Part shown: piece after piece, positions 4,010 through 22,442 of the stretch
Layout: the number at the start of each line of letters is the position of its first letter
Numbering within the stretch: the first letter of the stretch is position 1
IMG/VR virus record: IMGVR_UViG_3300027796_000117
Coordinates: 1 to 22,442 of that record
From: a virus
Length of the DNA stretch: 22,442 nucleotides
Strand: one strand, 5' to 3'
Made by a program: the position numbers and the translations under genes
The notes under the pieces: model-generated
What the model saw: the letters and a program-made list of their open reading frames with translations, nothing else
Told to the model about the DNA's origin: nothing
The model's database searches: none

Positions 4010-4133
4010 AGAGTTTTGGCTGGCGATACGGCAGGCGCTGCTTATGGCGCTGGACGCGATAGAGAAATTTATTCCGGTGAAGCCCACCACCGCAGATATT
4101 CGCAGGATTTACAAGGGCAAGGAGCAGGCATGA
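3999..4133 (+). CDS. Small conserved-looking phage protein, 44 aa
   Basis: A short frame opens at ATG 3999 and closes at the TGA 4131-4133. It encodes 44 residues beginning MESKEFWLAIRQALLMAL and continuing with DAIEKFIPVKPTTADIR, a helical, amphipathic N-terminal half and a basic tail ending KGKEQA. It overlaps the preceding gene by 11 nt. Its stop overlaps the protease-capsid ATG at 4130 by 4 nt, the same ATGA junction seen elsewhere in this operon, which argues strongly that it is real and sets the downstream start. From memory, similar very short ORFs with a KxFWxAxRQALLM start occur in other phage head modules, but no function is known to me; a role in portal or prohead assembly would be speculation. 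Confidence 0.7.
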   Translation: MESKEFWLAIRQALLMALDAIEKFIPVKPTTADIRRIYKGKEQA

Positions 4134-5821
4134 CTGACACACTGAAAATCAAGGCGCTGAATGTAGGGGAAGTGACACGCACGACAACCGGGGAAGTGAA
4201 GGCATTGAAGACGTTCGATGAATACACAGCCGAACCGCTGCACATCCTGGGTGTGCCTTACGGCGGGCCTGTTTCCGGGCGTGATACCGACGGGGAGGCT
4301 TTTCACACGGGTACTGATACCTGGCTGAAGGCTGGCGACACAATCCCTGTTACCTATTATCACGGGTACGGACCCGATGACCCGCATGACTGGCAGGATA
4401 GGCCTGTTGTTATCGGGCGGGCAAAGTACACACATCAGGACGAGCGCGGGCATTGGTTCGAGGCGCGGCTTGACGCGGATGAACCGCTGGCAAAGCGGAT
4501 ACTGGACAACCCGCAAGGAGCGAAGGCATCCAGCGGCGCAATCTCTCACCTGGTACGCACGGGCGAGGACGGACTGATAAACGTATGGCCGTTGGGGGAA
4601 CTGGCTGTATTTGACACAAACGAATGGCGAAAACCGGCGAACGAATACGCCGTTATCGAGGGCGTGAAATCTCTCACAGAGGATTCAGCAAAGGCGGAAA
4701 CGCAGCCTGAATCAGTTGACGAGGTGGACGAACCTAAAACCGAGACAACTAATAAGGAGAACGAAATGGAAGACGAAATCAAAGAAGTAAAACAGCCTGA
4801 TTATTCAGAGCTGATGGAAGAGATCAAATCTCTCAAAACTATGTGGAACGAAGCACCGGTTACAGTGAAAGCCGCGGCAGTCGTGCATGCTGAAAACCTG
4901 GGCGACCCTGACCCGAACCGCGCGTTTGCTCACTACCTGCGCACCGGAGAACGCGTCAAGGGTTTGAAAGCCGCAATGGGTGAGGATACGGCCGGAGTTG
5001 GTGGGTACTTAGTGCCTGATGACTTCTACGCCGGAATCGTTGAAAAACGTAACGAACTCTCAATCCCGCGCCGCGCTGGCGCAATGATCCTGCAGACCAG
5101 CCGCGATGTTTTGAACATCCCGATTGAGGCTACCAGCATGGCTTACTTCGCTCAGTCCACGCACGACATGGCAGCCGTGAACGAGAACGAGCCGACTGTT
5201 GGACAGGCTACCGCTACCGTCTTTGACTTCACCAAGTTGGTGAAGGTATCAGAGAACCTTCTGGAAGACAGCGGCGCGAACCTCAACCAGTTCTTGACAA
5301 ACTCGTTTGGGCGCTGGATGGCGATGACCGAAAACCGCAACGCGTTGATCGGGGCAGGCACAACCTATCCGCAAGGTGTGACCGTTGGTGGAACCGCCGC
5401 TCTCACATTTGACGACACGAACACCATCGCTGCAGCCGAGATCCCGGAACTGTATCACAAACTGGCGCAACAGTACCGCGACAATGCCGTGTGGACTATG
5501 AACGACACCACGCTGGGCTACCTGCGCGGGCTTACTTCGTCCAGCGTCTTCACCTTTGGCGGGCATGAGATCAATGACGAATCCATCATGGGTAAAAGGG
5601 TCTTCACTTCCACCTACATGCCGTTATACACGACAACTGCTTACAAGTCCGTTGTCTTTGGTGACTGGAGCATGTATGCCCTGGTAGAACGCAAGGGGTT
5701 GAGCGTCAAGCGTTTGAATGAACTTTACGCCGGTAATCGCCAGGTCGGACTTTTGGCAGTGTTCCGGCATGGCGGCGTAGTGCTGCAATCAGAGGCGTTT
5801 GCGATAGGCACTCAAGCCTAA
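4130..5821 (+). CDS. Prohead protease-major capsid protein fusion
   Basis: The 563-residue product joins two proteins normally encoded separately. Residues 1 to about 180 look like a caudoviral prohead (S78-type) protease: H78 in VTYYHGYGPDD, S134/S135 in AKASSGAISH and E157 in PLGELAVFD are my candidate catalytic residues. About 190-280 is an acidic, helical linker that could act as the scaffolding delta domain (MEDEIKEVKQ, then YSELMEEIKSLKTMW). From about 280 to the end is an HK97-fold capsid protein, with GGYLVPDDFYAGIVEK opening the N-arm and core and VVFGDWSMYALVERKGLSV near the end. The ATG at 4130 overlaps the 44-residue ORF stop by 4 nt; a longer frame from 4016 lacks a sensible start. 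An internal SD and ATG at 4754-4768 probably also yield capsid alone. Confidence 0.88.
   Translation: MTDTLKIKALNVGEVTRTTTGEVKALKTFDEYTAEPLHILGVPYGGPVSGRDTDGEAFHTGTDTWLKAGDTIPVTYYHGYGPDDPHDWQDRPVVIGRAKYTHQDERGHWFEARLDADEPLAKRILDNPQGAKASSGAISHLVRTGEDGLINVWPLGELAVFDTNEWRKPANEYAVIEGVKSLTEDSAKAETQPESVDEVDEPKTETTNKENEMEDEIKEVKQPDYSELMEEIKSLKTMWNEAPVTVKAAAVVHAENLGDPDPNRAFAHYLRTGERVKGLKAAMGEDTAGVGGYLVPDDFYAGIVEKRNELSIPRRAGAMILQTSRDVLNIPIEATSMAYFAQSTHDMAAVNENEPTVGQATATVFDFTKLVKVSENLLEDSGANLNQFLTNSFGRWMAMTENRNALIGAGTTYPQGVTVGGTAALTFDDTNTIAAAEIPELYHKLAQQYRDNAVWTMNDTTLGYLRGLTSSSVFTFGGHEINDESIMGKRVFTSTYMPLYTTTAYKSVVFGDWSMYALVERKGLSVKRLNELYAGNRQVGLLAVFRHGGVVLQSEAFAIGTQA
4754..4768 (+). promoter_or_regulatory. 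Internal ribosome binding site and start inside the fusion gene
   Basis: AAGGAG at 4754-4759 lies 6 nt before an in-frame ATG at 4766-4768, an almost ideal SD and spacing. It sits between the protease part and the helical delta-like segment of the protease-capsid gene, exactly where separate capsid genes normally begin. It would allow many capsid chains per fused protease chain. Confidence 0.65.
4766..5821 (+). CDS. Major capsid protein with delta domain, nested in-frame product
   Basis: Starting at the internal ATG 4766 (codon 213 of the fusion) gives a 351-residue protein, the normal size for an HK97-type capsid precursor with a short scaffolding segment. Its first 60-70 residues (MEDEIKEVKQPDYSEL onward) are acidic and helical, and the capsid core follows from about GEDTAGVGGYLVPDD. 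Structurally a T=7 head needs over 400 capsid copies but far fewer protease copies, so nested production would solve the ratio problem that the fusion creates. Existence of the nested product is inferred from the SD only; it has not been shown. Confidence 0.6.
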   Translation: MEDEIKEVKQPDYSELMEEIKSLKTMWNEAPVTVKAAAVVHAENLGDPDPNRAFAHYLRTGERVKGLKAAMGEDTAGVGGYLVPDDFYAGIVEKRNELSIPRRAGAMILQTSRDVLNIPIEATSMAYFAQSTHDMAAVNENEPTVGQATATVFDFTKLVKVSENLLEDSGANLNQFLTNSFGRWMAMTENRNALIGAGTTYPQGVTVGGTAALTFDDTNTIAAAEIPELYHKLAQQYRDNAVWTMNDTTLGYLRGLTSSSVFTFGGHEINDESIMGKRVFTSTYMPLYTTTAYKSVVFGDWSMYALVERKGLSVKRLNELYAGNRQVGLLAVFRHGGVVLQSEAFAIGTQA

Positions 5822-6496: not shown

Positions 6497-7102
6497 ATGT
6501 CAATCACACACGGCTATACCACCCTGGGAACGGTACGGAACGCGCTTGGCATCCCTTCAGATGACCAAAGTAATGACCTATACCTGGAGGCGACCATAGA
6601 GGCGGTAAGCCGCATGATAGACAACTACACCGGGCGGCGCTTCTACGTCAACGAATCCACCGAGGCGCGCTATTACTCACCGGTATCAACAGGTCTTTGC
6701 TGGACGGATGATATTACCACCGTCACGACATTGAAATCAGACGATGACCGGGACGGCGTATTTGAGACCACCTGGACGACATCGGATTACAAGCTGCTGC
6801 CGTATAACGCCGCGCTGAATGGCAAGCCTTACACGAGCGTTGAGACAAGCGGTTATGGCAGTTACGAATTCAGCACCAACCAGCGCTCACTTCAAGTTGT
6901 AGGTTACTTCGGCTATTGCACGGTTGCGAACCAACCGAAGATCATCGGGGAAGCGGCAAAGATACAAAGCGTGAGGTTATTCAAGCGCAAGGACGCACCG
7001 TTCGGAGTTGTGGGTGGTAATGAATTCGCTCAGGTGGTAGGTATTCCAGACATGGACCCTGATGTAAAGATGCTGCTATCAATGTACGTCAAGAGGGTGT
7101 AA
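6497..7102 (+). CDS. Head-tail connector protein, HK97 gp6-like
   Basis: The 201-residue protein opens TTLGTVRNALGIPSDDQSND followed by a helical YLEATIEAVSRMIDNYTGRRF, the typical start of the gp6-like (Phage_connect) adaptors that form the ring below the portal and gate DNA release. The C-terminal third (AAKIQSVRLFKRKDAPFG and a final DPDVKMLLSMYVKRV) is again helical. An extended middle part (residues about 60-140) is rich in Thr, Ser and Tyr and makes the protein longer than the roughly 100-residue HK97 protein. AGAGG precedes the ATG. The stop overlaps the next start as TAATG. Confidence 0.8.
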   Translation: MSITHGYTTLGTVRNALGIPSDDQSNDLYLEATIEAVSRMIDNYTGRRFYVNESTEARYYSPVSTGLCWTDDITTVTTLKSDDDRDGVFETTWTTSDYKLLPYNAALNGKPYTSVETSGYGSYEFSTNQRSLQVVGYFGYCTVANQPKIIGEAAKIQSVRLFKRKDAPFGVVGGNEFAQVVGIPDMDPDVKMLLSMYVKRV

Positions 7103-7527
7103 TGGGATTACAGAGCGCAATCACGAACATCAAAACACAAATAGCCGCTATCACGGGTATCAAGGGCGCTTCAGATTACCTCCCTGATAGTTTACCTGCT
7201 ACCGATAATTGGGTGGTTTTGTACCCAGGGCAATCGACCTTTGAGATAAACGCCGGAATGATGAAGGAACTGGCAGGCATCACCATTGAACTGCACACGC
7301 CGCGCCGGGGCGACCTATCGGGCGCAATCAAGCGGGTCATGCCTTATTGGGAGGCTATCCCGAATTGTATTTACGATGAAGTAATGGATACGCAGCTCAC
7401 GGCAGCGGTAAGCACGGTTGGGATGATCACCTGCTCAGGGCTGATAGCGATGAAATATAACGACATTGATACGGTTGGATTCCGGTACACAGTGACCGGT
7501 GTAAAAATTGAGAGTTCAATAACCTAA
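7102..7527 (+). CDS. Putative tail completion/terminator protein
   Basis: A 141-residue protein with an N-terminal helix (LQSAITNIKTQIAAITGIKG) and beta strands such as WVVLYPGQSTFEI, ITIELHTPRR and GFRYTVTGVKIESS. Small alpha/beta proteins of this size right after the gp6-like connector usually close the head or cap the tail tube (tail terminator or completion proteins). The role is inferred from order and fold-like pattern; there is no diagnostic motif. Its TAATG start junction couples it to the connector. In a standard phage the tail tube gene would follow, but here a sugar-gene cassette intervenes. Confidence 0.6.
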   Translation: MGLQSAITNIKTQIAAITGIKGASDYLPDSLPATDNWVVLYPGQSTFEINAGMMKELAGITIELHTPRRGDLSGAIKRVMPYWEAIPNCIYDEVMDTQLTAAVSTVGMITCSGLIAMKYNDIDTVGFRYTVTGVKIESSIT

Positions 7528-7535
7528 AGGAGCGA

Positions 7536-8273
7536 ATGGATAAAAAGAAGTTCGATGTACTCGACACTCTACCGATAATTGGATGGGCATGGCCAAAGAT
7601 AATGGTTTGCTATCCCCTGGAGCGGACCGTATCATACGCGGATCTTGTCATCCCCTCAATGATGCAGATAGCCGCGCAAGGGCCGCTGATGCTGCACATG
7701 CCGTACCAGCGCACAGACGTAGCGCGCAACAAGGCGGCGATTGAACTATTGAAGTCAGACTTTACGCATTTGCTGATGCTCGACCTTGACCACACGCACC
7801 CTTATAACATCGTACAGCGATTAGCACGCTGGGTCATCATGGACAAAAGTATTCAAGTAGTGGGCGGGCTGAATTACAGGCGCAGCGAACCGCACGACCC
7901 CTGTGCTTACCGCATGGACGAAAACGGAGCGATGTACGCCATTGAGTTCGACAAGGATAGTCAGCTCGTAGAGGTTGACCGGCTTGGAACAGGGTCAATC
8001 CTCATAGCACGTGAAGTATTTGAGCAACTGGAACTCCCCTGGTTCTATAACATTTACGACAAGGTTTGGGATGACGTTTGGCCGGGTGAGGACATTGGAT
8101 TTAGCAGGAAATGTAAAGCCGCTGGGATAAGAATGTGGTGTGATACCACAACAACCAGTCCGCATATCAATACAAGGCTGATAGACGATAGCACCTGGCG
8201 CGCCTGGCTGAATGCGAACCCTGAAAAGTTAGCAAAGGGGAACATTGAGCTGAACGAAATGATGGGCAAATGA
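7536..8273 (+). CDS. GT-A glycosyltransferase, family 2-like
   Basis: First gene of the sugar cassette, 245 residues, with an AAGGAG site 4 nt before the ATG. The GT-A nucleotide-sugar/metal motif is MLDLDHTHP with D83 and D85. RLGTGSILIAREVFE around 149-163 is the acceptor-side glycine motif. WPGEDIGFSRKCKAAG (G184, E185, D186) is the catalytic ED motif of inverting GT2 enzymes, and SPHI at H210 is a likely metal ligand. It should transfer a sugar from a nucleotide sugar to an unknown acceptor in the cytoplasm; no membrane segment is visible. Phage-borne relatives with the same GTG...R.VFE and GEDI.F motifs are known in general. Its stop overlaps the next gene as ATGA. Confidence 0.85.
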   Translation: MDKKKFDVLDTLPIIGWAWPKIMVCYPLERTVSYADLVIPSMMQIAAQGPLMLHMPYQRTDVARNKAAIELLKSDFTHLLMLDLDHTHPYNIVQRLARWVIMDKSIQVVGGLNYRRSEPHDPCAYRMDENGAMYAIEFDKDSQLVEVDRLGTGSILIAREVFEQLELPWFYNIYDKVWDDVWPGEDIGFSRKCKAAGIRMWCDTTTTSPHINTRLIDDSTWRAWLNANPEKLAKGNIELNEMMGK

Positions 8274-8890
8274 GTGTATCAGTCGTTATCGTTGGCATCA
8301 ATGGCTGGGAAGAATACACCCGTGAACTCATTGGCGATATATGGACGCACGAACCGGACGCTGAAATCATCACGGTAGACAATGCCAGTGACACACCCTA
8401 TCCGCAGGCAGACCATATTTACAGGGTGGAGGAGCGGTTATCCTACGCCGCCGCGCTGAACTTCGGAGTGAAAAGAGCAACCGGTGACTGGTTACTCACC
8501 TTGAATAACGACATACGCTGCAATGGCGCGTTCGTGGAAAAGGTACAAGCGCAGGCAAGGGGCGCGATTTACGGACGTCAGATAATCCAGGAGGCGGGGC
8601 ATACATGGCTTGGCAACTGGCTGGCGCTTATGGAAAAGACAACCTACTGGAAGGTAGGAGAATGGGATCCGAATTACAAGGCGTGTGGATTTGAAGACGC
8701 GGATTACTGCGTGAGAGCGGCTGAATTGGGGATACCTACCCAACCCATTGACCTGCCATTTACTCACCTTTGGGGTAAGACGCGCTGGGCAATACCAGGC
8801 TATGAGGGAACGCGATTAGAGAATATCGCTTACTTTGAGCGCAAACACGGTTGGCGGCCAGGGAATAACATGATGGTGACGCATGACTAA
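8270..8890 (+). CDS. GT2 family glycosyltransferase
   Basis: A 206-residue enzyme with the classical GT2 start VSVVIVGINGWEEYTRELI, the nucleotide-binding IITVDNAS (D37), the SYAAALNFGVKRATGDWLLTLNND run ending at the DxD-equivalent NND (D81), and the ED motif in CGFEDADYCVRAAELG (E142, D143). THLWG with H166 near the end is a probable metal or substrate ligand. The size is small, a single GT-A domain without accessory or membrane parts. It overlaps both neighbours (4 nt before, 8 nt after) and so belongs to the cassette. Donor sugar and acceptor cannot be read from the sequence. Confidence 0.87.
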   Translation: MSVSVVIVGINGWEEYTRELIGDIWTHEPDAEIITVDNASDTPYPQADHIYRVEERLSYAAALNFGVKRATGDWLLTLNNDIRCNGAFVEKVQAQARGAIYGRQIIQEAGHTWLGNWLALMEKTTYWKVGEWDPNYKACGFEDADYCVRAAELGIPTQPIDLPFTHLWGKTRWAIPGYEGTRLENIAYFERKHGWRPGNNMMVTHD

Positions 8891-9518
8891 ACTCGGAATC
8901 ATCCCGGCGGCTGGTAAAGCGGTAAGGTTCGGCGGCTTATTCAAGGAACTCATGCCGATTGGTGATGGTGAAACATTACTATCACACGCGGTTGAAACAC
9001 TGGCTGCGGTCCCGGTTGACATGACACTGGTCATTACCAACCATTACAAGATAGGGGCGCACAGCATGGCGCTGGCAAATCATCAAGTGAAGTTTGCACT
9101 ACAGCGCGATTTTGAGAGGGACGCATGGGGAGCGATACAGGCATCATTTGACATGGCGGCTGATTATAACTACTACCTCATGCCGGACACAATGATAAAA
9201 GCGGACATACCGCCGATAACAAGTGACTTCACGCTGGGAGTGTTTGAAACGTATAAGCCTGAGAGATTCGGAGTAATAGACAACGGGCATATCGTAGACA
9301 AAAACACCACGTTTGCAGGATTGCACCAGGCATGGGGCATGCTGATATGGAGCTGGACGGTGGTTGACTTCTGGAAGGATGGCGATTACAAGACGCACAC
9401 CGACGCGTTCAACGCCGCGATAAACGAATTCGGATATGGCACATTCAAAATTGACAAATACCATGATATTGCCTCATTCGAGGATTACAGGGGGCTGCTA
9501 TGTTCGAGCCATATATAA
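8883..9518 (+). CDS. Sugar nucleotidyltransferase-like protein
   Basis: The N-terminus LGIIPAAGKAVRFGGLFKEL with MPIGDGETLL after it is the signature of sugar-1-phosphate nucleotidyltransferases (the AAGxxxR loop binding the NTP, then KEL.PI). These enzymes make the activated NDP-sugar used by glycosyltransferases. A YLMPDTMIKADIP stretch around residues 92-104 matches the metal-binding aspartate region. At 211 residues it has the catalytic domain only; no left-handed beta-helix or acyltransferase tail is present. It overlaps the preceding glycosyltransferase by 8 nt and the methyltransferase by 19 nt, which supports supply of donor to the same pathway. The nucleotide and sugar are unknown. 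Confidence 0.78.
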   Translation: MTKLGIIPAAGKAVRFGGLFKELMPIGDGETLLSHAVETLAAVPVDMTLVITNHYKIGAHSMALANHQVKFALQRDFERDAWGAIQASFDMAADYNYYLMPDTMIKADIPPITSDFTLGVFETYKPERFGVIDNGHIVDKNTTFAGLHQAWGMLIWSWTVVDFWKDGDYKTHTDAFNAAINEFGYGTFKIDKYHDIASFEDYRGLLCSSHI

Positions 9519-10174
9519 TCCCGATGGGGCTGAAGGGGCGCTACTTCAGGGTAGAAAACGAACAGGGGAAATCCTGGTACGACCCGATGAAATGGTACAC
9601 CCTGCTTGAGTATCAATGGGTCATTGACAACGTGGCATTGGACGGCGAGCGCGTGATTGACGCGGGCGGGCATCACGGGCATTATAGCCTGGTACTGGCT
9701 GATAAAAACACGCTGAATATTGTGGAGCCTCACCCTGCAAACGTGACAATCATTCGGGCAAACCTTGCAGAGAATGGATTGTATTCAAACGTGATTCAAG
9801 GCGCGGTTGCTGGCAAGGCTGGTATCCGTTCATTCAGCGGAGAGACCAACGGACGGCTGGTAAACAGTGGCGCGTTCGATGTGGACTGCTGGACGCTTGA
9901 CATGATAGACCCGGACGCCGGAATCATCAAGATAGACATTGAAGGTGGAGAATACGACCTGTTCCCGGCGGCGATTGAAATGATGACCAAAGCGCACACC
10001 TGGATAATCGAACTACACCCGCAGTTTGGCAACCCGAACCTGATATGCGCCGCGTTCCTGAAGGCTGGTTACGACGCACTGAAGGTTTGCCGGGTGCATG
10101 GACAGGTGGAACCATACGACATTGAGGAACCCTGGGAATCTCATGCGACGGTGATATTCAGGCGGACGCTATGA
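9500..10174 (+). CDS. FkbM family methyltransferase
   Basis: The 224-residue protein carries the SAM-binding loop VIDAGGHHGHYSLVL, the acidic post-loop NIVEPHPANVTIIRANL, and the FkbM signature GIIKIDIEGGEYDLFPAA (D and E of DIEGGE). FkbM enzymes methylate hydroxyl groups, very often on sugars, using S-adenosylmethionine. In this context a sugar or a glycan end is the likely target, which would cap the chain or mask it from recognition. The ATG at 9500 lies inside the end of the nucleotidyltransferase gene with GGGG upstream; the stop overlaps the next start as ATGA. Confidence 0.87.
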   Translation: MFEPYIIPMGLKGRYFRVENEQGKSWYDPMKWYTLLEYQWVIDNVALDGERVIDAGGHHGHYSLVLADKNTLNIVEPHPANVTIIRANLAENGLYSNVIQGAVAGKAGIRSFSGETNGRLVNSGAFDVDCWTLDMIDPDAGIIKIDIEGGEYDLFPAAIEMMTKAHTWIIELHPQFGNPNLICAAFLKAGYDALKVCRVHGQVEPYDIEEPWESHATVIFRRTL

Positions 10175-10812
10175 ACTGGGATGCCTTCAAGGGATTGCAC
10201 AACGGCGAGACGGGGCTGGTAATCGGCAACGGGCCATCGCTAAAGAATGTACCGCTGGACTTCCTGAATAACTACCCGTCCTTCGGCACAAATGGGATAT
10301 ACAGACTGCAGGGATTCACACCAACCTATTATGTGGCGGTAAACCCATTGGTGATACAGCAATTCGAGGGAATAAAAGACGTGAAGTGTCAGAAGTTTTT
10401 GGCGGAGCGGTACGCCTGGGAATTGGGGGCGCTCCCCTTGCATAGCGCGGGCATCCCCGTATTCAGCAAAATACCGAATGAATGGATATACGAGGGGCAT
10501 ACCGTAACATTCGTGGCGCTTCAAATCGCTTACTTCATGGGATTTTCTACCATCCTGCTTGTGGGAGTTGACCATAAATTTACATTCGAGGGAAGACCGA
10601 ATCAACAGCTTCACATGGAAGGGGATGACCCGAACCATTTTGATAAGGATTATTTCAAGGGCAAGGACTGGAACGCGCCTGATTTGGAACGGAGCGCACA
10701 GGCTTACCGGCTGGCGCGGGCGGTGTATGAAGCGGACGGACGGCGGGTGATCAACTTGACTGAGCCAACAGAGGAGCCGGTATTTGAGCGAGGGAACATC
10801 AATGACTGGTAG
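10171..10812 (+). CDS. DUF115/GT42-like protein, putative glycosyltransferase
   Basis: The 213-residue protein starts with TGLVIGNGPSLKNVPLDFL, the GNGPSL loop shared by DUF115 (MptE-like) proteins and by GT42 sialyltransferases of the Cst type. Later parts fit the same plan: a VNPLVIQQF segment, VTFVALQIAYFMGFSTILLV leading into GVDHKF, then a NHFDKDYFKGKDW motif and AYRLARAVYEADGRRVINLT at the C-terminus. In Cst enzymes this layout binds a CMP-sugar. Whether this one uses a nucleotide sugar is unproven, since DUF115 also includes pterin pyrophosphokinase-like enzymes. Placement between a sugar methyltransferase and a GT2 favours glycan work. ATGA overlap with the previous gene. Confidence 0.7.
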   Translation: MNWDAFKGLHNGETGLVIGNGPSLKNVPLDFLNNYPSFGTNGIYRLQGFTPTYYVAVNPLVIQQFEGIKDVKCQKFLAERYAWELGALPLHSAGIPVFSKIPNEWIYEGHTVTFVALQIAYFMGFSTILLVGVDHKFTFEGRPNQQLHMEGDDPNHFDKDYFKGKDWNAPDLERSAQAYRLARAVYEADGRRVINLTEPTEEPVFERGNINDW

Positions 10813-11485
10813 AGTCACCGCGATTGTGAGTGCTTATTACTGCCAGGAATGGCTTGACAGACGGCTTACCAACCTGGAAGAGCAGGATGAACAGCCAGAA
10901 ATCATTGTTATCTGCGGCAACAACTCGAAGGAACACAGGATTGCAGAACAGCACGACTGCCGAATCATTGTGACTGAGGACGTGCCTACTATTTACGCCG
11001 CGTGGAATATGGGGACGCGGGCGGCGCAGGGGAAGTATCTCACCAACGCCAACGCCGACGACCTGCTGAAACCCGGTGCACTGAAACGCATGGCGGACAT
11101 ACTCGACAAGAACGCAACCTACGCGGTTTGCTACTCCAACGTGGATATTGTGGATTACAAAGGCGACCCGGCGGGCGTGTATGAATGGGCTGAAGGTGGA
11201 TTGCAGAAGCTACTCGAAGGCTGCTTTATTGGTCCTATGCCGATGTGGCGGGCATCATTACACAAACAGCACGGATATTTTGACGCGGAGTACCACGTTG
11301 CAGGGGATTATGAATTCTGGTTACGACTGGCAGCGGCTGGCGCGAAGTTTTATCACGTCAGAGAATCGCTGGGAGTGTATATGGCGCGGGGGGATAGCGC
11401 GGAACACAGAGAAAGTTTGCGTACCCTTTGGGAAACAAAACGGGCGCGCGGAAAGTACAGGGAACATGCTAATTTACGTGGGTGA
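10802..11485 (+). CDS. GT2 family glycosyltransferase
   Basis: Last enzyme of the cassette, 227 residues from ATG 10802, which has AGGGA upstream and overlaps the previous stop; the TTG at 10784 is less likely. GT2 features are VTAIVSAYYCQEWLDRRLTN, the second strand IIVICGNNS, GTRAAQGKYLTNANADDLL with the DxD-like D86/D87, and HVAGDYEFWLRLAAAG (D169, E171) as the catalytic ED. The sequence is clearly different from the two other glycosyltransferases in the cassette, so it probably makes a different linkage. It is followed directly, with a 20-nt overlap, by the small ORF before the tail tube gene, so the cassette is fully embedded in the operon. Confidence 0.87.
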   Translation: MTGRVTAIVSAYYCQEWLDRRLTNLEEQDEQPEIIVICGNNSKEHRIAEQHDCRIIVTEDVPTIYAAWNMGTRAAQGKYLTNANADDLLKPGALKRMADILDKNATYAVCYSNVDIVDYKGDPAGVYEWAEGGLQKLLEGCFIGPMPMWRASLHKQHGYFDAEYHVAGDYEFWLRLAAAGAKFYHVRESLGVYMARGDSAEHRESLRTLWETKRARGKYREHANLRG

Positions 11486-11654
11486 TGGGTTTTTGAATGG
11501 ACTGCCAACGCGGGATATTGAAGACGATGAAATAGACGCGCTGGGCGGTGAAAAGGTGTTACTGGCAACCGGGCTGTACCAAAGACCGGCAAAGAAAATT
11601 CATTCGGAAGATGAAGAGGTGAAACATGGGCATCAAAGCATTAAGAAGCATTAG
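11466..11654 (+). CDS. Small phage protein before tail tube, 62 aa
   Basis: An ATG at 11466, with AGGGA six bases upstream, opens a 62-residue frame: MLIYVGDGFLNGLPTRDIE followed by DEIDALGGEKVLLATGLYQRP and a charged tail. The compact first 45 residues with a Gly-rich beta turn and helix look folded. The last 10 codons overlap the tail tube start at 11626 by 29 nt. I have the impression that short proteins with a G.PTRD...LLATGLY pattern recur in tail regions of related phages, but no function is established to my knowledge. Longer upstream frame is covered by the glycosyltransferase gene and is not used. Confidence 0.65.
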   Translation: MLIYVGDGFLNGLPTRDIEDDEIDALGGEKVLLATGLYQRPAKKIHSEDEEVKHGHQSIKKH

Positions 11655-12615
11655 GTTAGGAAAGGAAACGACAGCCGGTACAGCCGTTGCAGCGACGACC
11701 TACTGGCGCGGTGAGGGGACCATCGAAGACCAGCGCGAGGTCGTGTTCCCGAATGAGGACGTTGGCTATCTCTCAGGCGTTGACCGCAGTTACATTCCAA
11801 AGAAGCTGGCGGCGATTGCGTTTGATTCTACACCGGCGACATTTGAGCAACTGCCTATCATCCTTCAGGCGGGCGTAAAGACCGTTGCGGCTGCAACCGA
11901 CACAGGCGGCAGCGGCAAGGTTTACGCCTTCACATTCCCGACAACCGCCGCAAACTTATTCAGCAAGTACACCATCGAAGGCGGGGATGACAGCGGTGGG
12001 GAAGAAATGCAATACTCATTTGTAGAATCATTTGAGCTTGCAGGAACCGGAGGCGAGGCCTGGATGGTGAGCGCGAACTGGGTAGGGCGCGAAGTAAGCA
12101 CCTCCACCCTCACGGTTGCGGCGACCATCCCGACGGTGTATGAGATCCTATTCAGCAAGTCCAAGCTGTACATTGACGCAATCGGCGGGACCATCGGCAC
12201 GACTGAAAAGAGTTGCACCCTCATGGGGGCGTCTCTCAAAGTGACAACCGGAATCAAACCGCGCTTTGCCGCCAACGGAGATACCTACTTCTGCCAGGCG
12301 GTCATGACCAAACCGGAAGTCCTGCTTGACGTGACCTTTGAGCATAACGCAACGGCTGTAGCAGAGAAATTGAACTGGCGCAACCAGACGGCGCGCCTGC
12401 TCCGTATCATCACTGAAGGCAACGCGCTAACCACCGCTGGCACATACGATTACAAGACCATGATCATTGACCTTGCCGGTAAGTGGGAAAAGTTTGAAAA
12501 GATTGGCGAGAGTGACGGGAATGACATTGTCAGCGGTACATTCCGTGCCGGTTACGATTCCACCGCCGCGAAGTTTGCAGAAATAAAGATTGTCAATGAG
12601 ACTGCGAGTTATTAA
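11626..12615 (+). CDS. Major tail tube protein
   Basis: A 329-residue protein rich in Thr, Ala, Gly and Ser, with long alternating beta segments and the opening GIKALRSIRLGKETTAGTAV typical of phage tail tube subunits (an early GxET.GTAV motif). FPNEDVGYLSGVDRSYIPKK and the YSFVESFELAGTGGEAWMVSANW region fit the tube fold, followed by a second beta-rich part that may form an outer domain. It precedes two small chaperone ORFs and the tape measure, the fixed position of tail tube genes. GAAGAGG lies 7 nt before the ATG. Its TAA overlaps the next ATG as TAATG. At 329 residues it is on the long side, consistent with an added surface domain, which could be a glycan acceptor. Confidence 0.85.
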   Translation: MGIKALRSIRLGKETTAGTAVAATTYWRGEGTIEDQREVVFPNEDVGYLSGVDRSYIPKKLAAIAFDSTPATFEQLPIILQAGVKTVAAATDTGGSGKVYAFTFPTTAANLFSKYTIEGGDDSGGEEMQYSFVESFELAGTGGEAWMVSANWVGREVSTSTLTVAATIPTVYEILFSKSKLYIDAIGGTIGTTEKSCTLMGASLKVTTGIKPRFAANGDTYFCQAVMTKPEVLLDVTFEHNATAVAEKLNWRNQTARLLRIITEGNALTTAGTYDYKTMIIDLAGKWEKFEKIGESDGNDIVSGTFRAGYDSTAAKFAEIKIVNETASY

Positions 12616-12914: not shown

Positions 12915-13144
12915 AATTACGCCTCGCCTTCCGATGCGTTCAATGGAACGCGCTCCCCAACCCTGGCGGGCTTATGGATCAACCCGCCGGGCTGGTGGAA
13001 CAAATGACAATCGCGCTGAATACCTACAACGCGATGAAGTCATGGAAGGCAAGAGAACCAGGCAAAGAAGGTGAGTTTGCCAAACACTACCCCGACACCT
13101 GGGGAATTGTGCAAGAGGTGATCAGATTGAGGAAGCATGGCTGA
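12860..13144 (+). CDS. Tail assembly chaperone T-like frame, made by -1 frameshift
   Basis: The frame encodes 94 residues if read from its ATG 12860, but that ATG lacks an SD site and lies just behind the slippery heptamer, so the frame is more likely read as the C-terminal part of a fusion. Slippage at 12851-12857 adds Leu and then this frame to the 81 residues of the short chaperone, giving 176 residues (12615-13144). This is the arrangement of lambda gpG and gpG-T and many other long-tailed phages. The stop overlaps the tape measure start by 8 nt. The T-like part has a WNALPNPGGLMDQPA segment and a helix at the end; in lambda this part binds the tail tube protein. Confidence 0.8.
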   Translation: MLAAADYAEGKKDARPPQELRLAFRCVQWNALPNPGGLMDQPAGLVEQMTIALNTYNAMKSWKAREPGKEGEFAKHYPDTWGIVQEVIRLRKHG

Positions 13145-14657
13145 TGCTGAACTATCAATAATCATAAAGGCACGCAACGAAGCCAAAGCCGAATTTGACA
13201 AGCTGGATAAACAGGTCAAAGGACTGCAAGGCGGGACTGGCGGGCTGAATACCAAACTTGGTGAACTCAATGGAAAATTCCAGTCCATAACCGGAATGTC
13301 ATTAGGGTTTGCAACGGCAGCGGGCGCGGCAGGAATGGCGGTCAAAGGGCTATGGGAATTTCTAAAAAGCTCAGTAGAGGAAACCGTTGCCTACCAGTCA
13401 GAAGTGAGAGACCTCAGCCGCCTTTTGGGATTGAATACAGAGGAAACATCCAGGCTGGTACAAGCCTCGGATGACCTGTTTATATCGCAGGAATCACTTG
13501 TAACAGCGATGCAAGCGGCAACACGAAAAGGGGTTGACACTTCCATCGACGGATTGAAGCGATTATCAGCGCAGTACTTGACGCTAAACGGTGGCGTAGA
13601 GCGCGGCAAGTTCCTGATGGATAACTTCGGGCGTTCCGGCGCTGACATGGGTAAACTCATGGAGGTGGGGGCGGACGGCATAAGTAAAGCAATGGCGGCG
13701 ATAAACGATTCGCTGGTAGTAACAGAGCAATCATTACAGGCAACCGAGAATTACAAGCGGTCGGTGGATAACCTAACAGATGCCTGGGCGGGATTCAAGA
13801 TGCAGGTGGGGAATGAAATTATTCCTCAATTAGATTTACTCATTCGACAATTCACGAAGGGCAAAGACGAAATTGAATTACAGCAGGAAGCCATTGGGCG
13901 GTTGAATGAGCAACTTGTGCAACTGAAAAAATACGGCGGCATGTCAGGCTTGACCGCTGAAGAAGTCGCCATCCAGATGAAAGCGCTTACCGATGAAATC
14001 GCAAGGCTGAAGGCTGAGGCGTTAGGGGCGACAACCGGAACGGACGGGTTGACTGGTTCTGTAACAGCGCTCGGAACAGAGACCTCCACCGTCACGCAAT
14101 ACTTCAAACAACTCACCACCGAAATGCTATGGAACAAAATAGCCGCTGGCATGACTGAAGAAGCGGCGATGTCACTGGCATGGGAGTGGGGGCTGGTGGA
14201 CGCGCAAACATTCGGGGCGTACAAGGCGGTAGAGAGATTGAACCGAATTTACGACTTGAATAAAGACGGCGTTATTGACGCTAAAGAAGCCACAGAAGAT
14301 TACAGGTTAGAAGTCAAGGGGCTGAAAACACAAGTGGATCTGTTACACGACAAGACCATTGATGTAACGGTAAACATGCACAGCAACGGTAGTTTGGGCG
14401 GCGGGTATCTCCCTGTGTTTGAGGAAGAACAAGCGGCAGGTGGGCCGGTATCAGGGAACACGCCTTATTTGGTGGGTGAAGTTGGACCTGAAATATTTGT
14501 ACCATCGGGCAGCGGTACTATCATCCCGAACAACAGGCTTGGTGGCGGGGGCGCAAGCATCGTGATCAACTATTCATCCGCATTGTCATTATCGAATCAG
14601 ACTGAAGCTGAAACCGTGCTGGTTCCGCTGATCAAACAAGCGTTGGCGAGAGCATGA
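13137..14657 (+). CDS. Tail tape measure protein
   Basis: The 506-residue protein sets tail length and is ejected on infection. Early residues DAELSIIIKARNEAKAEFDK with LDKQVKGLQGG are the usual tape measure opening, followed by a hydrophobic region (MSLGFATAAGAAGMAV at about 53-68) that may insert in the host membrane. Long helical segments follow. Near the end, AAGGPVSGNTPYLVGEVGPE and FVPSGSGTIIPN are the standard C-terminal motif of this family. DLNKDGVIDAKE at 373-384 is a perfect EF-hand or dockerin-like calcium loop. At about 1.5 angstrom per residue it predicts a tail of only about 75 nm, short for this kind. The stop overlaps the next gene as ATGA. Confidence 0.9.
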   Translation: MADAELSIIIKARNEAKAEFDKLDKQVKGLQGGTGGLNTKLGELNGKFQSITGMSLGFATAAGAAGMAVKGLWEFLKSSVEETVAYQSEVRDLSRLLGLNTEETSRLVQASDDLFISQESLVTAMQAATRKGVDTSIDGLKRLSAQYLTLNGGVERGKFLMDNFGRSGADMGKLMEVGADGISKAMAAINDSLVVTEQSLQATENYKRSVDNLTDAWAGFKMQVGNEIIPQLDLLIRQFTKGKDEIELQQEAIGRLNEQLVQLKKYGGMSGLTAEEVAIQMKALTDEIARLKAEALGATTGTDGLTGSVTALGTETSTVTQYFKQLTTEMLWNKIAAGMTEEAAMSLAWEWGLVDAQTFGAYKAVERLNRIYDLNKDGVIDAKEATEDYRLEVKGLKTQVDLLHDKTIDVTVNMHSNGSLGGGYLPVFEEEQAAGGPVSGNTPYLVGEVGPEIFVPSGSGTIIPNNRLGGGGASIVINYSSALSLSNQTEAETVLVPLIKQALARA

Positions 14658-17281: not shown

Positions 17282-18652
17282 ATGGCTATATTGATAATCG
17301 ACTTATCAAGTCACCAACCACCGAGCGCGATAAACTATGACCTGTTAGCCGATGCGGTTGACGGCGTTATACTCCGCGCGGCTTACGGCGTGCAGATACA
17401 GGGTGTGCCTGGTCCAGATCCCGCGTTTGCCAAACACTACGAGGAATTTCACAAGCGCGGCGTGCCTGTCGGTGCATACCATTACATCTGCGAATGGTGT
17501 ACAGCAAAAGACCAGGCTGATTTGATGAAGAAAACCATCGCTGGCAAAGAGTTGAAACTTGGCATTTGGGCTGACGTTGAAAATGAGCCTGGTGAATTAC
17601 CGTTGACTGAAAAGACGGTCGTTGAATACATGATGCTGATGGGGAGCGCGGATATTTACACTGGATTCTACTACTGGCGAGATATTATGAAGTTGAACCC
17701 CGCACGGTACGCAGACCGGAAGTTGTGGCTATCTGCCTACACACCATCACCATTACCTTACATCCCTCCGGCGTGGAAAACACAAACCTTGTGGCAGTAC
17801 ACCTCACACGGAAGTCTACCTGGTTATAGCGGAGATTTGGACATTAGTAAATACAACGGAACCGATGCGCAGTTTGACGCGTGGATTGGAAAGGTTACTG
17901 TGGATTATCCCGAATTACCGCTTACCGCCTTCAGCCAAAAAGACCCGGCATGGAAGGACATAAAACTTGGTACGTCAAACGTGACCATTGGTGCTTATGG
18001 TTGCCTGATTTCAGACGTGGCGATGGTGCTGAAATATTACGGAAAAGACACTGACCCAAAGAGGCTAAACGAGGCTCTTATAAGCGTTGGTGGATACCTG
18101 AACAATAACCTGTTGATCTACTCGGCAGTCACAAAAATATACCCCGATGTTGTAATGACAGATTTCGTTACTTCTGGGGTTTCTGATAAAGTAGACGAAG
18201 TGCTGGCTTCTGGAAAACCCGCTATCGTTATGGTAGATTATGACCCGTCCGATACCGACATTGACCAACATTGGGTGACTATCATTGGAAAGACTGGCGG
18301 TGAGTACATCATTCTTGACCCCATAGACGGGGCGAGACGGACTATAACATCGAAGTACGGAAAGAGCATTTACAAGATGGTGGTGTATAGCAAGAAGGAG
18401 GCACAAGTGGTTCTATTTAGAGTTAGGGTATTGATTGATAATTTATTGATTCGTTCTGGTGCTGGAAAGACTTACCCATCCATCGGATACGCAAGTGGGG
18501 AGTACGATGTGTTCGAGGAAAAGAACGATTACTACAAAATTGGCGATGGAAAATGGATCAGCGCAAACCCACTGTATGTACAAAAGGTAGGGGATTTGAC
18601 GCTTGAAGAACGGGTAAAGAAACTTGAAGATTGGGTAATAGCACACGGATAA
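17282..18652 (+). CDS. Three-module endolysin: GH25 lysozyme, C39-like peptidase, SH3-like
   Basis: The 456-residue protein cuts the cell wall to release phage. Residues 1-205 are a GH25 lysozyme: IIDLSSHQ with D7, YHYICEW, the catalytic IWADVENEP (D98, E100) and TLWQYTS. Residues 215-370 are a papain-fold C39-type peptidase: FSQKDPAWKDIKLG, then GAYGCLISDVAMVL with C241, QHWVTIIGK with H330 and YIILDPIDG with D346. About 378-435 resembles an SH3b wall-binding module (LLIRSGAGKTYPSIGYASGE), and the end (LTLEERVKKLEDWVIAHG) is a short coiled coil. There is no signal peptide, so a holin is needed. ATG 17282 follows CAGGAG; a frame from 17240 starts without support. The last two modules have lower G+C. 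Confidence 0.92.
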   Translation: MAILIIDLSSHQPPSAINYDLLADAVDGVILRAAYGVQIQGVPGPDPAFAKHYEEFHKRGVPVGAYHYICEWCTAKDQADLMKKTIAGKELKLGIWADVENEPGELPLTEKTVVEYMMLMGSADIYTGFYYWRDIMKLNPARYADRKLWLSAYTPSPLPYIPPAWKTQTLWQYTSHGSLPGYSGDLDISKYNGTDAQFDAWIGKVTVDYPELPLTAFSQKDPAWKDIKLGTSNVTIGAYGCLISDVAMVLKYYGKDTDPKRLNEALISVGGYLNNNLLIYSAVTKIYPDVVMTDFVTSGVSDKVDEVLASGKPAIVMVDYDPSDTDIDQHWVTIIGKTGGEYIILDPIDGARRTITSKYGKSIYKMVVYSKKEAQVVLFRVRVLIDNLLIRSGAGKTYPSIGYASGEYDVFEEKNDYYKIGDGKWISANPLYVQKVGDLTLEERVKKLEDWVIAHG

Positions 18653-19079: not shown

Positions 19080-19148
19080 ATGGCTAATTGGTCTTTACTT
19101 CAGGAGCAACTGACAGGCTTACCCGTTGTCAAGCGGAGGGATGAATGA
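19080..19148 (+). CDS. Possible 22-residue leader or micro-ORF
   Basis: ATG 19080 to TGA 19146-19148 encodes MANWSLLQEQLTGLPVVKRR plus DE. Its stop overlaps the next gene's ATG at 19145 by 4 nt, as in genuine neighbours here. It carries the strong GGAGGG that serves the downstream gene. It lacks a clear SD of its own, so it may be a remnant, or a translational coupler. Confidence 0.3.
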   Translation: MANWSLLQEQLTGLPVVKRRDE

Positions 19149-19969
19149 CAGGACAATTATCACCATTGGCACAGGGAAAAGCGGCTGGGGAGGCTGGTTA
19201 TACAACGCTGCTGCTGAAGACCGGGCAGACAACGCAGTATGACAGCGAACTGGACGATGGTTACTACGAAAAGGGAGTAGCGAAGTCCTACACCGTCAAT
19301 ACGGCTGGCAGTCAGTCGGGGACAACTAATGTAAATTTGGCTCATTACGCAGGCGGGGCAGGTGCTATCGCCTTCAACAATACCACGCACAAGATAACTG
19401 ATTCTGGCAACGGACTGGCTTTGTTCAAGACGAATGATGTAATCCTCACTGATTCAGCGTCTAATCCGGGTCCGTTCACGGTCACGACTGGAAACAATGC
19501 AGCAGAGATTGTGTGTACTGGGGCTACATTCGTTAACGAAACACCAGCAGGGGCAGTGACAATCTCAAAACGGGAAGCAATCAGCAATAACACGGTACTG
19601 GACAACAACACCGGGCTTGTTTGGTTGAGATATTGCTGTGCGAAATTCGGAGTATCGAGCAACGGAAACTTGGATTGGAAGGGAAATTTATACGATGCAT
19701 TTGCTTATTGTGCTGCTGCAAACGCAGCTTCTCTTGGAGGATATACCGACTGGAGAGTGCCAAATGTTAATGAGTTTATGAGCATTCTTGATTTTGAGGC
19801 TACAACAAACCTCCCTGATAGCACTGCTTTCCCATCGTTTCCGTCAGAGGTTTGGACATCCACAACAAGAGTGAATGGAACAACATCTGCCTATCAATTC
19901 TATCAACCGATTACCGTGGCTGCAAAAGCTGGTGACCCAAAACGGGTAATTCTTGTGAGAGGTGGCTAA
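19145..19969 (+). CDS. DUF1566/Lcl-domain tail tip protein
   Basis: A 274-residue protein with GGAGGG 4 nt upstream of the ATG. Residues 1-150 are Gly/Thr/Asn-rich and beta-like. From about 150 on, NTVLDNNTGLVWLRYC, WKGNLYDAFAYCAAANAASL, GGYTDWRVPNVNEFMSILDF, SEVWTSTT and a final RVILVRGG form the DUF1566 (Lcl C-terminal) domain, which has a C-type-lectin-like fold and is used in adhesins and phage tips. It is a good receptor-binding candidate. The G+C content drops from about 57 % (19201-19260) to about 38 % (19741-19800), so the tip was probably acquired separately. No reverse transcriptase or template repeat for a diversity-generating element is in the window. Confidence 0.8.
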   Translation: MTGQLSPLAQGKAAGEAGYTTLLLKTGQTTQYDSELDDGYYEKGVAKSYTVNTAGSQSGTTNVNLAHYAGGAGAIAFNNTTHKITDSGNGLALFKTNDVILTDSASNPGPFTVTTGNNAAEIVCTGATFVNETPAGAVTISKREAISNNTVLDNNTGLVWLRYCCAKFGVSSNGNLDWKGNLYDAFAYCAAANAASLGGYTDWRVPNVNEFMSILDFEATTNLPDSTAFPSFPSEVWTSTTRVNGTTSAYQFYQPITVAAKAGDPKRVILVRGG

Positions 19970-21869: not shown

Positions 21870-22442
21870 TTGACCGTTGAACTGATATTAGGTGACTGCC
21901 TCGAAGTGATGAAGTCCATCCCCGACAAGAGTATTGACGCGGTGATAACCGACCCGCCGTACGGGATGAAGTCACATAATATGAGATTAGCAGTTAGTAT
22001 GATGAATAACGACTGGGACGAAAATCCGGCATCAGATGAACAAATCAACACTATATTGGATATTGGGAAAACCACAGTTATTTGGGGCGGTAATTATTTC
22101 AAACTTCCTCCGTCAAGATGCTGGTTAGTTTGGGATAAAAAATCATTTGACAAAATGACATTTGCAGATTGTGAATTGGCGTGGACTAATGTTGACGCAA
22201 CCGTATCTATATTTAGAAAATCACCTCAAAACATGGATGGTGGGAAAGTCCACCCGACACAAAAACCAGAAAACCTTATGAGGTGGTGTATAGAAAAATT
22301 TACAAAAGAAGGTGATACCATCCTTGACCCGTTTATGGGCTCGGGAACTACTGGCGTGGCGTGTGTACAGACCGGGCGTAACTTTATCGGGATTGAGATT
22401 GACGAAGGGTATTTCAAGATAGCGGAGAAAAGAATACATGAC
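21870..22442 (+). CDS. DNA methyltransferase (N4/N6, beta class order), 3' partial
   Basis: A frame from TTG 21870 runs to the window end without a stop (191 residues visible). The start follows AGGAT; the upstream in-frame TAG at 21849 leaves no ATG. VITDPPYGMK with DPPY at 28-31 is catalytic motif IV, and VHPTQKPENLMRWCIEKF with ILDPFMGSGTTGVA (153-160) and NFIGIEIDEGYF is SAM-binding motif I, X and II. Motif IV comes first, with the target-recognition part between, as in beta-class enzymes. No restriction enzyme is visible, so this looks like an orphan phage methylase that protects phage DNA or marks it. The central part has clearly lower G+C than both ends. Confidence 0.9.
   Translation, partial: MTVELILGDCLEVMKSIPDKSIDAVITDPPYGMKSHNMRLAVSMMNNDWDENPASDEQINTILDIGKTTVIWGGNYFKLPPSRCWLVWDKKSFDKMTFADCELAWTNVDATVSIFRKSPQNMDGGKVHPTQKPENLMRWCIEKFTKEGDTILDPFMGSGTTGVACVQTGRNFIGIEIDEGYFKIAEKRIHD

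Follow-up and report, generated by a model that had tools for sequence, protein, structure and literature searches.

A modular cassette of glycan enzymes in the structural operon of an uncultured phage: a candidate virion-glycosylation system

Introduction

Glycosylation of virus particles by phage-encoded enzymes is already known from mycobacteriophages, and overall from few systems. Freeman et al. reportedly described it in 2023 in the mycobacteriophages Che8 and Corndog and in their relatives. In systems of this type the acceptor is the C terminus of a capsid or tail-tube subunit. Second-hand accounts in two papers describe phage glycosyltransferases, glycans on capsid and/or tail proteins, and a proposed shielding from antibodies (PMC11652166, PMC11256854). 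The capsid of Sulfolobus turreted icosahedral virus (STIV) is also glycosylated; its protein A197 has been proposed as the glycosylating enzyme, and virus carrying the A197 mutation D151E is delayed (PMC10551542). Here we analyse a cassette of six glycan-enzyme genes in the 22,442-base IMG/VR virus record IMGVR_UViG_3300027796_000117, the whole of which is referred to below as the window.

The cassette is real, conserved and modular. We consider it reasonably likely that this late-expressed, soluble cassette, an accessory unit of the late operon, glycosylates a protein of the phage virion. Since relatives carry the same set of genes elsewhere in the particle-building operon, a sugar chain on the virus's own particle is the probable product, possibly one that imitates the host surface.

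Organization and conservation of the cassette

Six enzyme open reading frames (ORFs) lie on a single strand at positions 7536-11485 of the window, between the tail-completion and tail-tube genes. A first-pass annotation, made from the sequence alone, had described a six-gene glycan cassette with short gene overlaps at this place. All are present, each with a family match:

7536..8273, + strand: G1, A197-like GT-A glycosyltransferase (PHROG 1574, 4e-15; profile match to STIV A197, 2c0n, 6.5e-5)
8270..8890, + strand: G2, GT2 glycosyltransferase (PF00535, 5.6e-10; LNND motif invariant in relatives)
8883..9518, + strand: G3, MobA-like/sugar-1-phosphate nucleotidyltransferase-type protein (PF12804, 1.4e-11)
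9500..10174, + strand: G4, FkbM-type methyltransferase (PF05050, 1.7e-7; TIGR01444, 8e-13, above cut-off)
10171..10812, + strand: G5, GT42/DUF115-like transferase (PF01973, MptE-like, 3.6e-10)
10802..11485, + strand: G6, GT2 glycosyltransferase (PF00535, 1.1e-13; ATG start preferred, the ORF opening at a TTG at 10784)

G1 starts 8 nucleotides past the end of the tail-completion gene (7102-7527). Successive genes overlap by 4 (G1/G2), 8 (G2/G3), 19 (G3/G4) and 4 nucleotides (G4/G5), and G5 and G6 overlap by 29 nucleotides from the TTG at 10784 or by 11 from the ATG at 10802. The overlaps of 4-20 nucleotides given at first are thus correct for most pairs (4-19 nucleotides), and for G6 depend on which start is used. 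Pfam, PHROG, profile and fold matches place phage-encoded glycosyltransferases of recognised fold in the cassette. G6 also matched the GT2 domains of chondroitin synthase by profile (1.8e-10). G3 accompanies G2 in every locus seen, and profile searches with G3 and G4 gave no informative solved relative.

No transmembrane segments were detected in G1-G6 by hydropathy or in the structural model, in agreement with the earlier statement that the cassette lacks membrane proteins; a borderline hydrophobic segment in G5 is a buried helix or strand in its AlphaFold model. A membrane flippase or membrane glycosyltransferase, the feature of Gtr-type serotype conversion, was not found in the cassette.

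Between the window and the related locus L052, cassette proteins are 58-71% identical and their structural neighbours 52-74%, the tape measure excepted. Reading frames are conserved in relatives, and the nonsynonymous substitution rate (dN) of the cassette is far below the synonymous rate (dS). The ORFs are therefore not due to chance, and are under purifying selection. The guanine-plus-cytosine content of the cassette does not differ from that of its flanks, and so gives no sign of recent foreign origin. Conservation equal to that of the neighbours, together with dN below dS, indicates a module kept by selection along with the structural genes rather than one recently gained by the window.

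G1, an A197-like glycosyltransferase

G1 has no Pfam match, and phage glycosyltransferase PHROGs other than PHROG 1574 matched it more weakly. By profile, STIV A197 was its only solved sequence relative. The AlphaFold model of G1 (predicted local distance difference test score 88) has a GT-A fold, and the nearest solved structure was again A197 (Foldseek 8e-10, template modelling score 0.71 by target). Further fold matches included the protein glycosyltransferases LH3, COLGALT1, mimivirus R699 and GalNAc-Ts. A DxDH motif and a GED-type aspartate, Asp186, are invariant in 16 homologues, and HMMER aligned Asp186 with D151 of A197. Because of this alignment and the match in sequence and fold, G1 is a candidate protein-glycosylating enzyme; from its sequence and modelled structure we infer that it is the best candidate for the enzyme linking the first sugar to protein.

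We also searched 396 genomes from the class to which a metagenome-assembled genome (MAG) named Anaerolinea, itself bearing a tail-tube gene, belongs (the class name, Anaerolineae, is inferred). G1 was present in three of them, and the best match, a protein fused to a GT2, came from a phage operon, where its gene has those for capsid and connector on either side.

G5 and its homologues in host genomes

G5 contains the GNGPS (GNGPSL) nucleotide-binding motif and a GT42-like fold. It gave a weak match to a PHROG annotated as sialyltransferase (7e-4) and a profile match to the sialyltransferase Cst-I (2p2v, 1.3e-5). CstII was the top Foldseek match of its AlphaFold model (1e-5), with archaeal HPPK weaker (9e-4). 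Identity in the structural alignment is only about 12-16%. The sequence alignment to solved GT42 enzymes ends short of the C-terminal catalytic segment. A role as a pterin kinase (MptE) is disfavoured by the Cst matches and by the host operons described below, although the HPPK fold match still counts for it.

Homologues of G5, 35-47% identical to the phage protein, were found in 36 of the 396 class genomes. Twenty of these loci were read, the gene families being confirmed in one of them. Upstream of the homologue were a cytidylyltransferase (19 of 20), a 2-hydroxyacid dehydrogenase (all 20) and a short-chain dehydrogenase/reductase (SDR; 19 of 20); NeuB was present in nine. Downstream was a GT2, as in the phage. 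Since the host homologues sit in operons for cytidine monophosphate (CMP)-activated sugar acids, the donor of G5 is likely a host-made CMP-activated acidic sugar. Phage and host G5 proteins form separate clades (support 100/99), a split consistent with one old exchange in either direction.

These host homologues make a host-surface target the strongest rival explanation (ALTERNATIVES). The cassette would then remodel the host cell-surface glycan, for late superinfection exclusion or lysogenic conversion, with G5 and G6 acting on the same polysaccharide as their host counterparts. The host operons do include NeuA/NeuB-type, PMT-like, capsule-synthesis and Wzy_C genes, and conversion is conceivable given that the relatives of this phage are prophages. 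However, flippase, polymerase, lipid-carrier and membrane proteins are all missing from the cassette, every observed placement is in the late structural operon rather than in a lysogeny region, the phage G5 proteins form their own clade, and host genomes hardly contain G1. We regard a host-surface target as unlikely. The first-pass annotation had held that homologues showing action on host surface polysaccharide or nucleic acid would refute a virion target; this applies in part, as G5 and, distantly, G6 have homologues in host surface-glycan operons.

Placement of the cassette in related phages

Profile scans with the major capsid protein (MCP), G1, G2, G5 and the tail-tube protein gave 115 sequences, 86 of them non-redundant after clustering, and gene order was mapped with purpose-built profile hidden Markov models. 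Phage isolates showed no match to the window at the DNA level, and protein searches with the tail-tube protein and G5 found no isolate relatives. MAG contigs scanned with a narrow tail-tube alignment gave nothing; a wider alignment gave five MAG loci.

Nine non-redundant loci contain all six enzymes. The full set lies at the tail-completion/tail-tube junction in the window, L052 and L022, and directly 5′ of the terminase genes in L070, L084, L087, L088, L090 and L100, where a single protein combines G1 and G5. The gene preceding terL, the large terminase subunit gene, in L070 encodes the terminase small subunit (terS). A core of G1, G5 and G6, separate or fused, recurs in more loci than the full set. 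Alone or with Methyltransf_24, the core is found at the tail-completion/tail-tube junction (L013, L045, L053, L054, L081 and L085), between the MCP and connector genes (L059 and L061), and, in a different portal/MCP lineage, after a neck-like gene and before a gene for a 268-residue protein (L056, L086 and L091). The cassette does not, therefore, always lie between the same two genes, as had been thought worth checking, and with the site 5′ of terS/terL it occupies at least four positions. Strong homologues of G1 or G5 were present in 35 non-redundant loci, and in 34 of these they lie on the same strand as, and within or beside, virion or packaging genes. This location, almost exclusively among head, packaging and tail genes and in several places, is why a virion target is favoured.

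Glycosylation of downstream tail fibre or receptor-binding proteins, tuning adsorption, is another explanation. Several downstream proteins have no known function, one of them with an Lcl_C domain (19145-19969), and, like host-range genes, the glycan enzymes differ from one relative to the next. In the same 34 loci, nevertheless, the cassette has head, packaging and neck/tail-tube genes around it or downstream of it and is not beside fibre genes, and a fibre target seems to us improbable.

The position just 5′ of terS/terL in several relatives bears on a third explanation, in which the cassette, expressed late and near packaging genes, would modify phage DNA through a glycosylated base. DNA methyltransferase genes are moreover interleaved with or adjacent to the cassette in L005, L073 and L087. 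These methyltransferases, however, are ordinary PF01555 enzymes, and no base hydroxylase, dNMP (deoxynucleoside monophosphate) kinase or hydroxymethylase was found among the scanned window proteins. The lack of hydroxylation genes had already led the first-pass annotation to judge DNA glucosylation less likely, and we agree. GT42-like, A197-like and FkbM enzymes are not known to modify DNA, and we rate this explanation as very improbable.

Both genes of the tail-completion/tail-tube junction were seen in 44 loci, which allowed the comparison of relatives with and without the cassette that had been proposed at first. The junction is empty in 23 of the 44 (spacing of at most 251 bp, a short gap or a small backbone ORF), filled by glycan-type genes in 17 (in one by a VGSHP gene only) and filled by something else in four. 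On the tail-tube tree the state of the junction changes at least eight times, with at least three changes forced by well-supported branches.

Proteins of the VGSHP family (300-390 residues, 16 matches) occupy the same structural-region positions in L016 (6980-7936), L026 (6423-7352), L033 (8859-9992), L076 (6823-8001) and others. The family has no Pfam, PHROG or convincing PDB match. Its motif TSSxAYAxALAIYxGYxxIExYGxE resembles the GT42 core by eye, and a link to G5 by profile comparison was not significant.

Fusions were found between G1 and G5 (six loci), G5 and G6 (L096), G1 and a methyltransferase (L060) and G1 and a GT2 (L174). These fusions tie the core enzymes to one another. Optional enzymes across relatives include DNA N4/N6 methyltransferases, Methyltransf_24, NKWYS, Sulfotransfer_3, extra GT2, B12-binding radical SAM, FkbM, GT61 and hexapeptide-GT2 proteins. 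NKWYS-type and Sulfotransfer_3-like proteins lie in the glycan modules of L061 (3377-4051) and L059 (5395-5817), which suggests sulfated versions of the glycan in some relatives.

Proposed activity and the search for an acceptor

We propose that these would be cytoplasmic enzymes directed at a phage virion protein during its synthesis, whether one of the head, neck or tail tube or a decoration protein. G1 would place the first sugar on the protein, and G6 and G2 would extend the glycan. G5 would add an acidic keto-sugar of the nonulosonate type from the host CMP-sugar pool, G3 may provide one activated sugar missing from the host, and the product would be methylated by G4. Such a glycan could mask the particle or tune adsorption, and gain and loss of enzymes would make it differ among relatives.

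The methyl-capped oligosaccharide suggested in the first-pass annotation does not hold in general, because the FkbM protein G4 is outside the core and absent in many relatives; there its place is taken by Methyltransf_24, sulfotransferase-like, radical-SAM or GT61 genes. The evidence is better matched by a terminal sugar of sialic-acid-like type, attached by G5, than by a methyl cap. A wider proposal is that a host GT42-like transferase was captured once, that the module is mobile within the structural operon, and that by this means an entire class of uncultured phages covers its particles with a host-type, sialic-acid-like (nonulosonate) glycan in mimicry of the host surface. This we put forward tentatively, as a possibility with less than an even chance.

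Several observations weigh against glycosylation of a virion protein by the cassette. GT-A fold matches are common and have no power to name an acceptor, and the phage group has no isolate. The placements counted above comprise about four that are truly independent, so that 34 of 35 loci are not 34 independent events, and tolerance of insertions at these sites might in part explain why the genes lie beside virion genes. The homologues of G5 and, distantly, G6 in host surface-glycan loci make a cell-surface target possible. The serine/threonine content of the C-terminal 30 residues of the tail-tube protein and MCP is equal with and without the cassette, and neither protein showed a C-terminal extension or serine/threonine enrichment in cassette phages relative to others. 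As the mycobacteriophage type of acceptor is not seen, the window is not assigned to that type; this leaves room for another acceptor. In phages with the cassette, the tail-tube (11626-12615) and connector (6497-7102) proteins had a higher overall serine/threonine content (p=0.0014 each, with no correction for relatedness), but the excess disappeared when relatedness was considered (four supported independent pairs, p 0.25-1). The search by serine/threonine content and sequons gave no acceptor signal. The virion target proposed in the first-pass annotation thus retains the late-operon setting, the lack of membrane proteins and an A197-like G1 in its favour, without an acceptor signal in the capsid or tail tube.

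Flanking genes

The gene order on the one strand is terL, portal, MuF, capsid, connector, tail completion, cassette, tail tube, tape measure, hub and endolysin, followed by several proteins of unassigned family. With terL, portal, MuF, MCP, connector, tape measure and hub genes around it, the cassette is embedded in the morphogenesis (late) operon, as first described. It is flanked by:

7102..7527, + strand: gene in the tail-completion position, left flank (position and conservation in relatives)
11466..11654, + strand: conserved 62-residue ORF (MLIYVGDGFLNGLPTRDIEDDE...) with a GFLxGxPxRDLxDEE motif, between G6 and the tail-tube gene
11626..12615, + strand: putative tail-tube gene, right flank (before chaperone-position ORFs and the tape measure; 44 viral relatives)

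The cassette had been placed between the tail-completion and tail-tube genes. The junction is correct, but the intervening 62-residue ORF was overlooked. The same motif occurs in ORFs of 60-81 residues preceding the tail-tube gene in relatives with and without the cassette. Because cassette-free relatives retain it at the junction, the ORF is part of the phage backbone and outside the cassette. The names of the two flanking genes stand by position alone, as neither protein has a Pfam or PHROG match.

The N-terminal part of the capsid ORF (4016-5821, about 600 residues) matches a head maturation protease PHROG, and protease and capsid are therefore apparently fused. The endolysin (17285-18652) has GH25 and C39-peptidase-like domains, and the Lcl_C (DUF1566-type) protein lies near the end of the structural region. 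An open-ended DNA N4/N6 methyltransferase gene with a DPPY motif occupies 21870-22442 (+ strand). In L005, two PF01555 DNA methyltransferases (11889-12497 and 13132-13815) are interleaved among the glycan genes, and the second is a close match to the C-terminal end of the window protein, which suggests that the DNA methyltransferase gene is mobile within these phages. In a scan of the cassette for internal promoters, promoter-like sites were not above expectation; terminator-like sites were in excess, mainly on the minus strand.

Host and significance

Relatives of the tail-tube protein occur in MAGs named Anaerolinea, Anaerolineales and Armatimonadetes CSP1-3, and in 12 of the 396 class members. 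One of these comes from a contig of 3.99 Mb that carries a complete structural operon, indicating that the relatives are temperate. The virus of the window is uncultured, and its relatives include prophages of Anaerolineae-type bacteria.

If the virion reading is true, a multi-enzyme exchangeable module for particle glycosylation is widespread in uncultured phages of environmental bacteria. As such hosts have no animal immune system to evade, its advantage would have to come from elsewhere, whether from an effect on adsorption, particle stability or host defences or from mimicry. Close relatives in which one junction is either empty or filled make the function directly testable.

Comparison with known systems

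The Anaerolineae-class operon (cytidylyltransferase, dehydrogenase, SDR, G5 homologue and GT2/PMT) shares with the cassette a G5 homologue followed by a GT2. It differs in having donor-synthesis and membrane glycosyltransferase genes and no G1, and in the separate clade of its G5. With the Campylobacter GT42 enzymes Cst-I and Cst-II and the DUF115/MptE-like superfamily, G5 has in common the GNGPSL motif, a profile match and the fold, at the low identity noted above and with archaeal HPPK (MptE) also matching. In the STIV pair of A197 and capsid protein B345, the likeness lies in the profile and fold match of G1 and in the tested D151, which corresponds to the invariant aspartate; STIV, however, is icosahedral, infects archaea and has only one enzyme of this kind. 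The mycobacteriophages likewise encode their own glycosyltransferases. In contrast to them, the window belongs to a phage of a different, uncultured host, the C-terminal serine/threonine acceptor tail was not found, and six enzymes of five families, including a GT42-like protein and a nucleotidyltransferase, lie inside the structural operon. By analogy, the cassette may work like the virion glycosylation of mycobacteriophages, and possibly like that of STIV, but it is at most a candidate member of either system.

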